DNA of 64,000 nucleotides, from positions 16,051-80,050 of the IMG/VR virus record IMGVR_UViG_3300025122_005335. One strand, 5' to 3'. A program made the translations under genes and the position numbers. Positions 1,893-7,456 of the stretch are shown piece after piece (positions within the stretch are counted from its first letter, which is position 1; each line of letters opens with the position of its first letter). Origin of the DNA: a virus. The notes below the pieces were generated by a model. The model was not told the origin of the DNA. It did not search any database and saw nothing but the letters and a program-made list of their open reading frames with translations.

Positions 1893-3176
1893 ATGAACGC
1901 AGGGAAAAATCGTAAAAGAGATTTAGAACTTTTAAGTGAGGTGTATTCAGAAGCTATGGGTTACGCCGGTGGCCGTGGATCTGTTAATACTCAACCAGGT
2001 GCGGGTGGTACCGGAGATTACGATGATAGCACAGGGCAGATTACACAACGTGCTGAAGACCAAAACCCTTTAGAAAATCCGTTTGGAGAGAGTGAGGAGA
2101 CATACGAAGGTGAAGAAGAGAGCCAACAACGAAGAGCTGCGAGGCAATTGGAAGACGAGGGTTATACCGGAGGCAGGGCAGACAATAAAGGCAATTTGAT
2201 ATATAATAAAGGCACTTCGCATGCTCGAGTAGATACAGATGGGCAAATTAACGGCCAACCAGCGCAAGAGTTTTTTAGAGGAACCGGTACAGAAGATGCA
2301 GAAGATTTTGGAAGCCCTAATTCAAATAGATCAGGTTGGGGAAGTGATGCTTTTTCACACCCGGGTAGCAATGAGACAACTGATGAAGATGAAGGGGGAA
2401 TAATGGGTATAGATGATTGTGAAGATGAACCAGGTAAAATAGATGTAGTTATAAACCCAGCATCAGCGCACGGTATAAGAGATATTCTTAAAAATATTTT
2501 TAGTAAGGATGATGAAGATCAAGAAGATGATGATTGGATGGATGAGGAACCACCGGGGCTCAAATACGGCGTCGGTTCTGAAGAACCGGAAGGAATGAAG
2601 CATTATGATGATGCTGCACAAGCTCATAAAGCAGATGAAAGAGAAAATAGAAAAAATCTTCGCGCTCAAAATAGAATTGCTAAAAAATATGGTTTTAATC
2701 CTGACGAAAATGCTGAAGATACAGACGAATATGATACAAATCTTTTTAAACATCTTGATAAACGAAATACAGATGAGGCTGAGAAACAAGGTTTTGATCC
2801 AGGTTTAAAGAATGTTCGTCATAGTGATGAAGATGAAGTTGATCGAGAGGGAAGATATAAAGAACGTTGGGGTAAAGATCTAGACGACGAAAAAGATCGC
2901 GAAGGTAGTTCAAACGCTGGTGAATATACAAACGTAGATAAAGACGAATTTTGTGGACCATCTGGTGGTGCCGCAGATGGGACATACCCTGTTAATACAA
3001 GAAAAAGAGCAGAAGCTGCTAAACGGTTAGCGCATAATGCGCCAGACCCAGATGGAATAAAAAGATGCGCTGATAGAGCATTAGCTAAAGATTCTTATTA
3101 TTCTTCTAAAGGTGATAGAGCAATGACTCAAATAACTGAATCATATGAGCAAGTTTTAAAAAATGGCTTACTATAA
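1893..3176 (+). CDS. Acidic late protein with capsid-targeting-like leader
   Basis: Unrecognised 427-residue, very Asp/Glu/Gly-rich and probably disordered protein. It begins MNAGKNRKRDLELLSEVYSEA. The first 11 residues are the same as those of the gene at 3656, and the following LSE/YSE-A resembles the (L/I)-x-E site cut by T4 gp21 protease in capsid-targeting sequences. Acidic low-complexity composition suits a head-core or internal protein. The C-terminal 24 residues (SYYSSKGDRAMTQITESYEQ and following) resemble the start of the next gene, so the 3' end looks like a fused duplicate of that leader. Late expression is indicated by the perfect box 5 nt upstream. Confidence 0.8.
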   Translation: MNAGKNRKRDLELLSEVYSEAMGYAGGRGSVNTQPGAGGTGDYDDSTGQITQRAEDQNPLENPFGESEETYEGEEESQQRRAARQLEDEGYTGGRADNKGNLIYNKGTSHARVDTDGQINGQPAQEFFRGTGTEDAEDFGSPNSNRSGWGSDAFSHPGSNETTDEDEGGIMGIDDCEDEPGKIDVVINPASAHGIRDILKNIFSKDDEDQEDDDWMDEEPPGLKYGVGSEEPEGMKHYDDAAQAHKADERENRKNLRAQNRIAKKYGFNPDENAEDTDEYDTNLFKHLDKRNTDEAEKQGFDPGLKNVRHSDEDEVDREGRYKERWGKDLDDEKDREGSSNAGEYTNVDKDEFCGPSGGAADGTYPVNTRKRAEAAKRLAHNAPDPDGIKRCADRALAKDSYYSSKGDRAMTQITESYEQVLKNGLL

Positions 3177-3233
3177 ATCAAAAGGTGATAGAACAATGAC
3201 CGACTTATGCGAAGCATATAGTCAAATAGTCGG
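3095..3233 (+). repeat. Imperfect tandem repeat of RBS plus leader
   Basis: Two copies, about 3095-3157 and 3168-3233, share AAAGGTGATAGA(G/A)CAATGAC and encode related peptides (KGDRAMTQITESYEQV and KGDRTMTDLCEAYSQI). The ATGs lie 73 nt apart, in different frames. The first copy is read as the tail of the 1893 gene, the second as the start of the next gene. Confidence 0.75.
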
Positions 3234-3645
3234 TGAGCGAGAAATTGTAAACGAAAGAACGATAGCATCTTATGAAGGTGGTACCGAACGTCCGGTAGTT
3301 CAAGAAGTTCTTGGTGCTTTAGCTGGTGCTGCTGCTACAGGTGCTGCTTCAGCTTTAGGTGGTAAGGCCATGGATGCTATTACAGGAAATGAAGACCAAG
3401 AAGGCCCAGTGCAAGACTTTGAAGTTGGTTCATTTGTTAAGATTGATGATAGTCAAGGCGGTGGTTCAGGTGAGATAGTTGACATTTCAACAACAGAACC
3501 GGAGATGTATTGGATAGAAACAGATGACGATTCAACAAATGTTAGAGTACATAGAGATTTTCTAACGATTTCAAAAACAATTGCCGATGAAACGCGTCCA
3601 GAAGATGAACCCGGTCAATGGACCGCCGGAAGAACAGGACTATAA
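3196..3645 (+). CDS. Late protein with capsid-targeting-like leader and small beta-rich domain
   Basis: Unrecognised. I place the start at ATG 3196 because AAAGGTG, a good ribosome-binding site, lies 9 nt upstream; an alternative ATG at 3163 lacks one. The product then begins MTDLCEAYSQIVGE, where L-C-E-A fits a gp21-type cut. An Ala/Gly-rich helix (about residues 35-60) is followed by a region (GSFVKIDDSQ to VHRDFLTIS) whose pattern suggests a small KOW- or SH3-like barrel; that is inference. The stop codon lies inside the late box of the next gene. Confidence 0.75.
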   Translation: MTDLCEAYSQIVGEREIVNERTIASYEGGTERPVVQEVLGALAGAAATGAASALGGKAMDAITGNEDQEGPVQDFEVGSFVKIDDSQGGGSGEIVDISTTEPEMYWIETDDDSTNVRVHRDFLTISKTIADETRPEDEPGQWTAGRTGL

Positions 3646-3648
3646 ATA
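3641..3648 (+). promoter_or_regulatory. Late promoter box (perfect TATAAATA)
   Basis: The box ends 7 nt before the ATG at 3656. It contains the TAA stop codon of the preceding gene (3643-3645), so the two elements share bases. Confidence 0.75.
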
Positions 3649-3655
3649 AAATTTT

Positions 3656-4756
3656 ATGAACGCAGGAAAAAATAGAAAAAGAGACCTAACTCAAATAGAA
3701 GAGGCTTATGAGGCTGTTGTAGGTAACCCCCCTGGTAAAGCTGCACACAAGCAGCAACTTAAGCCGGGTAAACCTATTAACAGAACATATGAACGCGCCG
3801 GTAAAAAAGTTAAGGTAAAGGGTGGTAACACTGACATACCTGCTGAAAAACCGGATGGTTATCAAGGATTTGTCCATGACAACTCAGGACCTAACGGTGC
3901 AGACAATTTTAAAAGCACAGAATTAGATCCCGACAACCCAAAAGTTAAGTTAGATAACGAGTATGATGTTACAGAGTTATCAGATGAAGGTGCTGATCTT
4001 TATTTTAAGTCTGAAAATGAAAAAATTAACAAAGAGAGTATAAATACTAATATGGCTAAGAAAAGATCTATTTTTGACCGTTTATACGAAGAAGTTATTG
4101 ATGATGAGCAGATCGATGCTGTAGAATTAGGTATTGATACAGATGTTGTTGATGATGTTGACGTTGAAGACGAAGACACAGTTACTATAACAATTCCGAA
4201 AGAACTTGCACATCATTTACATGACGCATTAATGGACGTTATGGACGCTGCTGATGATATCGAAGATGTCGAGGATGACCTCGGTGACGAAGATGATTGG
4301 GACGGCGATGAGGATGCAGAAGAAACTGCGAATCAGAAGACCTATGGTGGTAACAAGGGTGATGATCCACGACACTTTGATCGTAAAACAGGTCGTAAGA
4401 CCCAAGATAAAGATTACGAGGGTGAAGAGGAAGAAGAAAATTTCAATTACTTTGGTGAAGAGATCGAAGCCGAGATTCTTGGAACACCTTTAGTCAATCA
4501 GAAGGAAGGTAACCCAACACCAGTAACTGGTAGCGCCAACGTTGTTCACACTCAGTATACATCCAAAGTCGGAAGTAAAGAGGGTGACGGCAAAAGCGGT
4601 ATTAAATTAGATCCTGAAGGTACTGATGAAGGAACACCTTTAGTTAACCAGAAGAAGGGTAACGCAATGTCAGTAAAAGGAAAATCTAATGTTGTTAAGA
4701 GCAAGATTAAGGGTGGCGGTAAAGGCGACCAAGAGTTCTTTCAGAAGAACAGCTAA
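3656..4756 (+). CDS. Acidic late protein, probable head-core type, containing a nested gene
   Basis: Unrecognised 366-residue acidic protein. It begins MNAGKNRKRDLTQIEEAYEA, sharing its first 11 residues with the gene at 1893 and carrying I-E-E-A, a gp21-like cut site. Residues 133 onward can also be made separately from an internal late promoter and ATG at 4052. A helix (TVTITIPKELAHHLHDALMD) is followed by an Asp/Glu tract and two copies of a GTPLVNQK repeat. Acidity, leader and late expression suggest a prohead core or internal protein such as T4 gp67/gp68, but no homology is claimed. A strong terminator follows the stop. Confidence 0.8.
   Translation: MNAGKNRKRDLTQIEEAYEAVVGNPPGKAAHKQQLKPGKPINRTYERAGKKVKVKGGNTDIPAEKPDGYQGFVHDNSGPNGADNFKSTELDPDNPKVKLDNEYDVTELSDEGADLYFKSENEKINKESINTNMAKKRSIFDRLYEEVIDDEQIDAVELGIDTDVVDDVDVEDEDTVTITIPKELAHHLHDALMDVMDAADDIEDVEDDLGDEDDWDGDEDAEETANQKTYGGNKGDDPRHFDRKTGRKTQDKDYEGEEEEENFNYFGEEIEAEILGTPLVNQKEGNPTPVTGSANVVHTQYTSKVGSKEGDGKSGIKLDPEGTDEGTPLVNQKKGNAMSVKGKSNVVKSKIKGGGKGDQEFFQKNS
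4039..4046 (+). promoter_or_regulatory. Internal late promoter (perfect TATAAATA)
   Basis: The exact late consensus lies inside the 3656-4756 reading frame and ends 5 nt before an in-frame ATG at 4052, the same geometry as the genes' own upstream promoters. Confidence 0.65.
4052..4756 (+). CDS. Nested in-frame product with its own promoter and leader
   Basis: An in-frame ATG within the larger gene would give 234 residues beginning MAKKRSIFDRLYEEVIDDEQ. This N-terminus again looks like a capsid-targeting leader, with L-Y-E-E as a possible gp21-type cut, and it is preceded by a perfect late box at the usual distance. The upstream part of the big frame also has its own leader, so the long gene looks like two genes joined in frame by loss of a stop, with the inner promoter kept. 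Whether both products are made is not known. Confidence 0.6.
   Translation: MAKKRSIFDRLYEEVIDDEQIDAVELGIDTDVVDDVDVEDEDTVTITIPKELAHHLHDALMDVMDAADDIEDVEDDLGDEDDWDGDEDAEETANQKTYGGNKGDDPRHFDRKTGRKTQDKDYEGEEEEENFNYFGEEIEAEILGTPLVNQKEGNPTPVTGSANVVHTQYTSKVGSKEGDGKSGIKLDPEGTDEGTPLVNQKKGNAMSVKGKSNVVKSKIKGGGKGDQEFFQKNS
4481..4697 (+). repeat. Internal coding repeat (GTPLVNQK)
   Basis: Two copies start at about 4481 and 4631. They encode GTPLVNQKEGNPTPVTG...NVV and GTPLVNQKKGNAMSVKG...NVV, with DNA identity high in the first 30 nt. This indicates an internal duplication at the C-terminus of the acidic protein. Confidence 0.7.
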
Positions 4757-4776
4757 TAAAAAATAGATATATTCTA

Positions 4777-4801
4777 AAGCCCCCGAAGGGGGCTTTTTTT
4801 T
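4777..4801 (+). terminator. Intrinsic terminator
   Basis: A perfect 8-bp stem AAGCCCCC / GGGGGCTT with a GAA loop is followed directly by a run of eight T. It ends the 1893-4756 late unit; the next late promoter box begins 3 nt downstream. Confidence 0.93.
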
Positions 4802-4803
4802 GC

Positions 4804-4810
4804 TTAAATA
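4804..4810 (+). promoter_or_regulatory. Late promoter box (TTAAATA)
   Basis: The box ends 5 nt before a GTG start at 4816 and directly follows the terminator. It is a weaker match to TATAAATA, but the spacing is the same as for other late genes. Confidence 0.55.
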
Positions 4811-4815
4811 TTAAC

Positions 4816-5232
4816 GTGAGCTTTGTTAAGTTTTTTACTGAAGGTGATGTTTCGAATTTTTGGTCACGAAAACCTAATACTGTGCGGAAATCCCCGGAGT
4901 GGTATCATCGAAATCGATATAATCTTGCTTCTACACAAAGTAGAGAACAGAAAGACGTGGTAGATGACCCAGCTAATAGAAAACATGCTCGAACAGTACC
5001 CGAATACAAGACAGAAAACATGAGTTTACCGGATGCCTATAAAGCTATAAAGAGTCAAGGTGGTCCAAAATCGATTCCAATAGGGTATTCAAATGTACGT
5101 CAATTAATGCAAAGATTTGGTATAAATCCCAGAAAGGTTATGGTTGGTAAGCCTGTGAGATTAAAAAATACAGGTGTTGCAATTGATTATAGACCAAACA
5201 ATACGTTTCATTTAGTAAGAACAGGAAGATAA
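4816..5232 (+). CDS. Small basic late protein with capsid-targeting-like leader
   Basis: Unrecognised 138-residue protein with a GTG start chosen from the late box 5 nt upstream. The N-terminus MSFVKFFTEGD is amphipathic and has F-T-E-G as a candidate gp21-type cut. The body is Arg/Lys-rich (RKPNTVRKSPEWYHRNRYN) and contains IGYSNVRQLMQRFGINPRKV, which could be a small helical DNA-binding element. Its stop overlaps the next start (TAATG), so the two genes are translationally coupled. Confidence 0.75.
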   Translation: MSFVKFFTEGDVSNFWSRKPNTVRKSPEWYHRNRYNLASTQSREQKDVVDDPANRKHARTVPEYKTENMSLPDAYKAIKSQGGPKSIPIGYSNVRQLMQRFGINPRKVMVGKPVRLKNTGVAIDYRPNNTFHLVRTGR

Positions 5233-6119
5233 TGGCTATTAATATGGACAGATATAAGGGTATTAACCAAATTATGCCCAAATTTTTGCCTGGTGTACCT
5301 ACTCCCGATCCTAGTGAGCCGGGTTCTATATACCCGGGTCCAAAACCATATAATCAATGTTTTAGATTTACTAATAAAGCAAATAATGCATGTGAAAGAA
5401 TTGTTATTGACAATTGGTGGGAAGAAATAATTGCATTATTTGGTCAAATTGTAACGTATTGGCAGAACCCTTATCAGACATTATCTGCTGATGGTCTCCC
5501 TAAGGGAGCTATTAACTTAGAGGGTGGTGGCCCTGGTAATATATATGGTGAAGAACCTACTAAGATCTTTAAAGATCCTAAGAACATAATTATAGCAGTT
5601 GAACTAAATGAAAATGCAGTAGTTTTACAAAAATATGGTTTTGATTCTGATGATGAATTAACAGCTTATGTACATATTAGTGCATTTTATAATGAATTTG
5701 GCTGGTTACAAGAACCTAAAGCAGGTGATGTGTTTGAATTAACAGAATATGGAGATGACAGACCTTATCCTCGAACTGGTAAGAAATTTGAAATAACTGA
5801 AAGACTGGACGAAGACGTTGCTAGGATAAATCCATTAGCAGGTCATTATGTGTGGATGATAAAAGCTAAACGTTATGATTATAGTTTTGAGCCTGGGTTG
5901 AGTGCTGAAGGTGGTAGCCAACAAGTGTACGATGATAAATTTTCTGGTCGTTTGGCTGACGGAGAGAACCCAAGATCATCACCTAAGAGTTATGAAGGTG
6001 ATCTTGAACAACTATCTAAAGCCATATTTGATTATTCTGGTTTCGATTATGACGACGTTTATGGGGGATATGGTAATACTGAAAATCCTGAGTCGGGGCC
6101 GTTCGGGCCTGGCTCTTAA
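5232..6119 (+). CDS. Probable virion neck or head-completion protein (gp14-like)
   Basis: 295 residues, coupled by TAATG to the preceding late gene. The middle part (AFYNEFGWLQEPKAGDVFEL, then KKFEITERLDED, then GHYVWMIKAKRYDYSFE) has the order seen in T4-like neck proteins: a pair of strands around a property-range motif followed by a strand ending in a Tyr/Phe-rich segment. The C-terminus is Gly/Asp-rich. This is recognition by pattern only; another small head-tail connector protein is possible. The gene is convergent with the next one and overlaps it by 4 nt. Confidence 0.5.
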   Translation: MAINMDRYKGINQIMPKFLPGVPTPDPSEPGSIYPGPKPYNQCFRFTNKANNACERIVIDNWWEEIIALFGQIVTYWQNPYQTLSADGLPKGAINLEGGGPGNIYGEEPTKIFKDPKNIIIAVELNENAVVLQKYGFDSDDELTAYVHISAFYNEFGWLQEPKAGDVFELTEYGDDRPYPRTGKKFEITERLDEDVARINPLAGHYVWMIKAKRYDYSFEPGLSAEGGSQQVYDDKFSGRLADGENPRSSPKSYEGDLEQLSKAIFDYSGFDYDDVYGGYGNTENPESGPFGPGS

Positions 6120-7047: not shown

Positions 7048-7456
7048 TGGTTACAAAGTTGTGTTTTTCAAATGGGTCACCTTCTATAGGTGTTGTTTTT
7101 AGAAATGTCTTTGTACCTATATATATTTTTATACCAATGTTACATTTAGGGCATTCATATTCATTATCCTCTGATACAACTATAGGTACAAACGCGGGGG
7201 TATTACAAGTTTCCACAGGACAAATTACTTCCAACCCTTGTTTTGTAAATTCTTTTATACGTTCGTTCTCTAAAGTTCTAAACTCTACTTCCAATTTTGA
7301 TTTATTCCATCTAGTAAAAAGATCATATACAATAAACTGCAATAATATGGATAAACCAAAAACAGCCCAGAAGTTTAAACCTAAAAAATAGCAGCAACCA
7401 CCAATAAACGCACTAATAACAAATACTATAGTAAGGGATTTAACAATTTGTAACAC
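7031..7456 (-). CDS. Small membrane protein with zinc-ribbon tail
   Basis: The GTG start at 7456 is fixed by an early promoter whose -10 lies 6 nt upstream. Two hydrophobic helices (about residues 5-25 and 28-46) form a hairpin in the membrane. A soluble tail has two cysteine pairs, CPVETC at 79-84 and CPKC at 102-105, spaced as in a zinc ribbon. Function is unknown; early expression and membrane location would fit a host-takeover or exclusion role, which is inference. Confidence 0.75.
   Translation of the reverse strand: MLQIVKSLTIVFVISAFIGGCCYFLGLNFWAVFGLSILLQFIVYDLFTRWNKSKLEVEFRTLENERIKEFTKQGLEVICPVETCNTPAFVPIVVSEDNEYECPKCNIGIKIYIGTKTFLKTTPIEGDPFEKHNFVTNEDYE

Follow-up and report, generated by a model that had tools for sequence, protein, structure and literature searches.

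A predicted nested late gene, with two promoters and one reading frame, conserved across relatives of a T4-like virus

How many proteins does one open frame encode? At positions 3656-4756 of the window, by which we mean the whole 64,000-nucleotide stretch analysed here (16051-80050 in a virus record of 80,050 bases), an open reading frame finder calls one protein, whereas the sequence evidence says two, and says so across a wide range of aquatic phages. The first-pass annotation of this DNA had reported a late promoter box inside the frame, followed by an in-frame ATG, and had proposed either two nested products with the same C-terminus or a recent in-frame fusion of two genes. The internal box and the ATG are indeed where they had been placed, on the plus strand; the nested product has a leader of its own, starting exactly as described there; and the host frame has its own external promoter candidate. 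The features of the locus are the following.

3641..3648, plus strand: external late box TATAAATA, 7 nt before the ATG of the long product at 3656
3656..4756, plus strand: long product of 366 aa, an open frame from ATG to stop
3656..4051, plus strand: long-only part of 132 codons, with an N-terminal helix-like leader MNAGKNRKRDLTQIEEAYEAV, under purifying selection
4039..4046, plus strand: internal late box TATAAATA, separated by 5 nt from the internal ATG (-13 to -6)
4052, plus strand: predicted transcript start at the first base of the internal ATG, from the spacing of T4 late boxes
4052..4756, plus strand: nested short product of 234 aa, beginning MAKKRSIFDRLYEEV, its ATG in frame with that at 3656 and its stop in common
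4481..4546, plus strand: first copy of a C-terminal repeat, GTPLVNQKEGNPTPVTGSANVV, from repeat comparison
4631..4696, plus strand: second copy of the repeat, GTPLVNQKKGNAMSVKGKSNVV, 76% identical to the first
4776..4796, plus strand: strong intrinsic terminator 3' of the shared stop, common to both predicted messages

The upstream gene has its stop codon (3643-3645) within the external box, for which the predicted transcript start lies at about 3654, leaving a 2-nt leader. The TATAAATA box is not enriched by itself in the window (8 sites vs 16 expected); the arrangement TATAAATA-N5-ATG occurs 3 times vs 0.44 expected, a count reached by one of 100 shuffles, and its remaining two copies are ordinary gene starts (1893, and 8328 on the minus strand). 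RNA structure at the starts showed nothing unusual.

We hold it highly probable that an old in-frame nested gene is being maintained here, with two late promoters, one frame, one terminator, and two proteins. In T4 the late box covers -13 to -6, counted from the transcript start (PMC1524935). Given this span and the 5-nt gap, position +1 would be the A of the ATG at 4052, and we predict an inner message without a leader. The outer promoter would produce a message with a leader of about 2 nt, translated into the long protein, and the inner one a message translated from its very first base into the short protein, which would be the C-terminal part of the long one. If starts are set by the 5' end instead of a ribosome-binding site, the long message would yield the long protein for the most part, and the short protein would come from the short message; as Shine-Dalgarno-led starts seem to be generally lacking, the internal AUG would be poorly used within the long message, and promoter use would set the isoform. 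The sequence and spacing of the internal box fit a T4-type late promoter, and the same box also stands ahead of the lineage's sheath, tube, terminase, and neck-region genes. We infer that a gp55-type late sigma factor would use these promoters, that translation would be leaderless, and that both proteins would be made.

Searches with the nested half yielded about 80 viral contigs, and the resulting sample of 85 sequences falls into 49 clusters at about 90% identity, with protein identity ranging from 100% down to about 30%. These clusters are not independent events, and losses may be under-counted since the relatives were found via motifs inside the nested half. The first-pass annotation had advised looking in relatives for a stop codon between about 4020 and 4052. 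There is no stop codon between the halves in any of the 85 sequences, three of which have a contig edge before the long start. A recent fusion of two formerly separate genes, the internal promoter being a relic of the second, would account for a second half that has its own promoter and leader, like a free gene, and an old fusion could indeed be the origin of the locus. The frame is joined in all the relatives, the most distant of them at about 30% identity, however, and no split version was found. We therefore rejected a recent fusion, one of the two outcomes initially proposed, and give it a negligible probability.

The same relatives bear on the internal box. Of the 49 clusters, 48 have the motif NHTAAATA at exactly -13 to -6, counted from the internal ATG, as TATAAATA in 33, ACTAAATA in six, AATAAATA in four, GATAAATA and CCTAAATA in two each, and ATTAAATA in one. 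In the sole exception (L080) the exact spacing is absent and TATAAGTA lies 8 nt upstream instead. Absence of the box from relatives had been named in the first-pass annotation as grounds for refuting a nested gene, and this part of the test could be run: the box is kept. Such conservation of a predicted promoter across divergent clusters is the decisive evidence for the observation, and two nested in-frame products with a shared C-terminus, behind an external and an internal late promoter, are thus supported, their expression being a prediction. Where relatives carry CTAAATA variants, the encoded residue changes from Ile to Leu, yet the box pattern persists. These variants match the late box of phage Aeh1, which is CTAAATA and begins at -12 (PMC1524935). 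Elsewhere in these contigs the late boxes mostly read ATAAATA, which suggests that CTAAATA is tolerated and does not mark a switch of the whole lineage.

Could the long protein be the sole product, the box reflecting the coincidence of a conserved Ile-Asn or a binding site with another role? The residues that the box encodes (Ile-Asn) are conserved as protein in most groups, and part of the box conservation could be at the protein level, though silent positions are conserved too. We measured synonymous constraint segment by segment, as codon identity at shared residues. In group A (8 sequences) the segment covering box and ATG takes first place, its codons being all identical against an average of 0.61; it also leads in groups A and B taken together (0.95 vs 0.58) and when 32 sequences are compared (0.96 vs 0.54). 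Group B and the freshwater group each have it among their top segments, level with the codons just downstream, and codons right after the ATG are also strongly conserved in some groups. Against a single long product stand, first, these fixed silent positions. Second, codons with the change to Leu retain the TAAATA box, and the gap to the ATG is still exactly 5 nt. Third, the internal Met is as conserved as the best residues. We also scanned 360 long open reading frames of these loci (121,766 codons) for internal in-frame [AC]TAAATA placed 4-7 nt before an ATG, and 42 of the 43 sites found are this gene. Exact placement in 48 of 49 clusters, synonymous conservation, and this near-exclusive occurrence led us to reject a chance box, and a long protein alone seems quite improbable.

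The geometry of the internal start is that of the lineage. The 49 loci hold 190 non-internal NATAAATA boxes close to starts, and the gap is 5 nt in 106 of them, 6 nt in 29, and 7 nt in 12; the box-to-start gap is 14-35 nt in T4 and 18-36 nt in cyanophage B23, whereas here it is mostly 5-7 nt. Late boxes stand 5-7 nt before the starts of many late genes of the window, e.g., at 1893, 3656, 4816, 8328 (minus strand), 8361, 44609, 49630, and 54812 (minus strand). Shine-Dalgarno-like sites precede 4 of 75 genes of the window, compared with 22 of 36 in a T4 region and 28 of 52 in HTVC008M. With boxes this close to the starts and such sites nearly absent, we predict leaderless late mRNAs. A generally leaderless phage, as this one seems to be, would explain how a promoter alone can make an isoform.

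TATAAT-like boxes end 5-9 nt before non-late starts in 13 of 15 cases (5 of 15 in a scrambled control), as at 7456, 9826, 14189, 21386, 22656, 27399, and 55831, all on the minus strand. Early messages may hence be leaderless too, which is suggestive only. In the literature searched, leaderless late messages were not reported for T4-like phages, which does not prove that they are absent.

The scarcity of Shine-Dalgarno-like sites also bears on whether ribosomes might enter at the second ATG of one long message, the inner box being no promoter. Internal initiation of translation is annotated for gene 21 of T4, and in some relatives a G-rich stretch (GGAGGG) lies 13 nt ahead of the internal ATG. 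That is too far off for a normal ribosome-binding site, however, and the stretch is not conserved; the element that is conserved is a late box at promoter spacing. We consider internal entry on a single message an unlikely explanation and retain the two-promoter reading.

The upstream half is under selection as well. Its dN/dS values are 0.04-0.42, purifying in 21 of 21 pairs, and those of the nested part are 0.05-0.45. This led us to discard an untranslated or decaying upstream half, and purifying selection on the long-only N-terminus argues that both products are maintained. In nearly all clusters the long start is preceded, at a distance of 4-11 nt, by a late-type box, several of these boxes being just beyond the 8-nt limit of our script and read by eye; it is absent in two (L020 and L021). 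A terminator-like hairpin follows the stop in all 46 clusters with enough sequence. As read from the DNA, the unit is an outer predicted promoter, an inner predicted promoter, and a terminator.

The leaders of neighbouring genes resemble each other. The end of gene 1893-3176 (3094-3146) copies the leader region of the next gene (3167-3219) with 74% identity over 53 nt (YYSSKGDRAMTQITESYEQVL vs YYKSKGDRTMTDLCEAYSQIV), as if the leader had been duplicated. The leader MNAGKNRKRDL is common to genes 1893 and 3656, and a relative (L005, gene at 4526) has MNYYKSKADKALKQIEEAY at its long start, resembling gene 3163. Leaders seem to have been swapped between neighbouring genes.

The genome is T4-like, with a terminase and head-closure-like proteins (PHROG match) and with sheath- and tube-like proteins recognised by eye; terminase matches in cultured phages reach at most about 37% identity, and no cultured member of this phage group was found. 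WhiB, looked for as a clue to the host, was not found. In one relative (L088) the terminase frame (2936-5704, minus strand) encodes 922 aa vs 571-580 aa in others, and the sequence right after its LLTSRQLGK motif looks like the start of an intein. In related contigs the nested gene adjoins the terminase and lies near a head-closure-like gene. Its short product has a conserved SIFDxLYE leader and a conserved EVTITLxxELAxxLH segment, and its C-terminal repeats carry GTPLVNQK and GKxNKV-type motifs, the latter also in distant relatives. The product is acidic and mostly disordered in an AlphaFold model, of which the best part is a helix near 182-200, with a weak helix at 5-22 in the long-only leader; the mean pLDDT of 47.6 makes the model unfit for a fold search. 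Searches of cultured phage genomes (tblastn), PHROGs, Pfam, PDB, and GTDB gave no useful match, although the BLAST low-complexity filter may mask weak ones, and a profile search of HTVC008M, phiM9, B23, and ACP17 gave no credible match.

A gp21-type protease gene is present in five of nine related contigs, with a scaffold-like gene beside it in the two that were read, which argues that the nested gene is neither. Leader-to-leader similarity, considered as a sign of a targeting signal shared by the two N-termini, proved only partial, with 8 of 48 cases below 0.05 by shuffling, the two N-termini being alike in the window and in three relatives (L040, L102, L099) and not in most clusters. In T4 internal head proteins the gp21 protease cuts off the capsid-targeting leader behind a site of the L/I-x-E type; here LYE or IEE occurs in the leaders of many relatives but not all, and LYA, LYD, and LYS also occur. 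With a shared acidic disordered tail, a differing N-terminal module, and short helix-like leaders, both proteins might be head-core or internal head proteins, an assignment that we make tentatively, at a little under an even chance. The nested gene may also be real and its proteins not belong to the head, acting, e.g., as late packaging or host-takeover accessory proteins. That possibility is a substantial one: searches of PHROGs, Pfam, and PDB gave no homology support for a head role, acidic disordered tails are not specific to heads, and the neighbour is a terminase. The late promoters, the terminase and head-closure-like neighbourhood, and the helix-like leaders lean towards the head, none of them decisively.

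Helix-like leaders ending in L/I/F-x-E, a loose pattern, occur in 14 of 21 late-box genes and in 32 of 74 others. Short late proteins with such leaders include those at 4816, 8361, 22694, 44609, 49630, 50986 (minus strand), 51385, and 57589, and the set is possibly a large group of targeted head proteins.

Nested products of this kind are already known, with precedents in T4 and lambda. T4 gene 17 (gp17', gp17'') and the internal product of gene 21 are likewise shorter in-frame products of a late gene with the same C-terminus, and gene 17 is annotated with 'internal transcription and in-frame translation'. These are different genes without sequence relation to ours, and T4 has no TATAAATA within 40 nt of the internal starts, whereas here a perfect box stands at leaderless spacing throughout the lineage. 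The textbook nested head gene is C/Nu3 of lambda, in the head-assembly region, where an in-frame start with a shared C-terminus separates a protease from a scaffold by translation. Unlike in lambda, the nested start here has its own predicted promoter, and protease and scaffold-like genes are separate in related contigs; no family match identified the long product as a protease or the short one as a scaffold. T4 internal proteins with a capsid-targeting sequence are likewise late, with a short N-terminal leader followed by variable sequence, and no sequence relation to them was found. A comparable mechanism is known for VirF21, whose shorter in-frame form comes from an mRNA with no leader or almost none, started at an internal promoter (PMC5101355); VirF21 is a single case in a bacterial regulator, whereas ours is a deeply conserved viral late gene. 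What is new is the gene itself, together with how deeply it is conserved, its fixed leaderless geometry, and the leaderless layout behind it, common to the lineage.

The locus offers a clean and conserved case of a predicted internal viral promoter with fixed leaderless geometry. It points to a T4-like lineage with leaderless late, and perhaps early, mRNAs, whereas late messages of T4 have leaders and ribosome-binding sites. In a lineage where leaderless messages are the rule, the start of transcription would be the start of translation, and one internal late promoter would suffice to create a stable second protein, so that promoters would choose between the long and short isoforms of a head-associated protein; we see this as an attractive possibility, with chances approaching even. 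The link between transcription start and protein start would thereby become directly testable in a phage.
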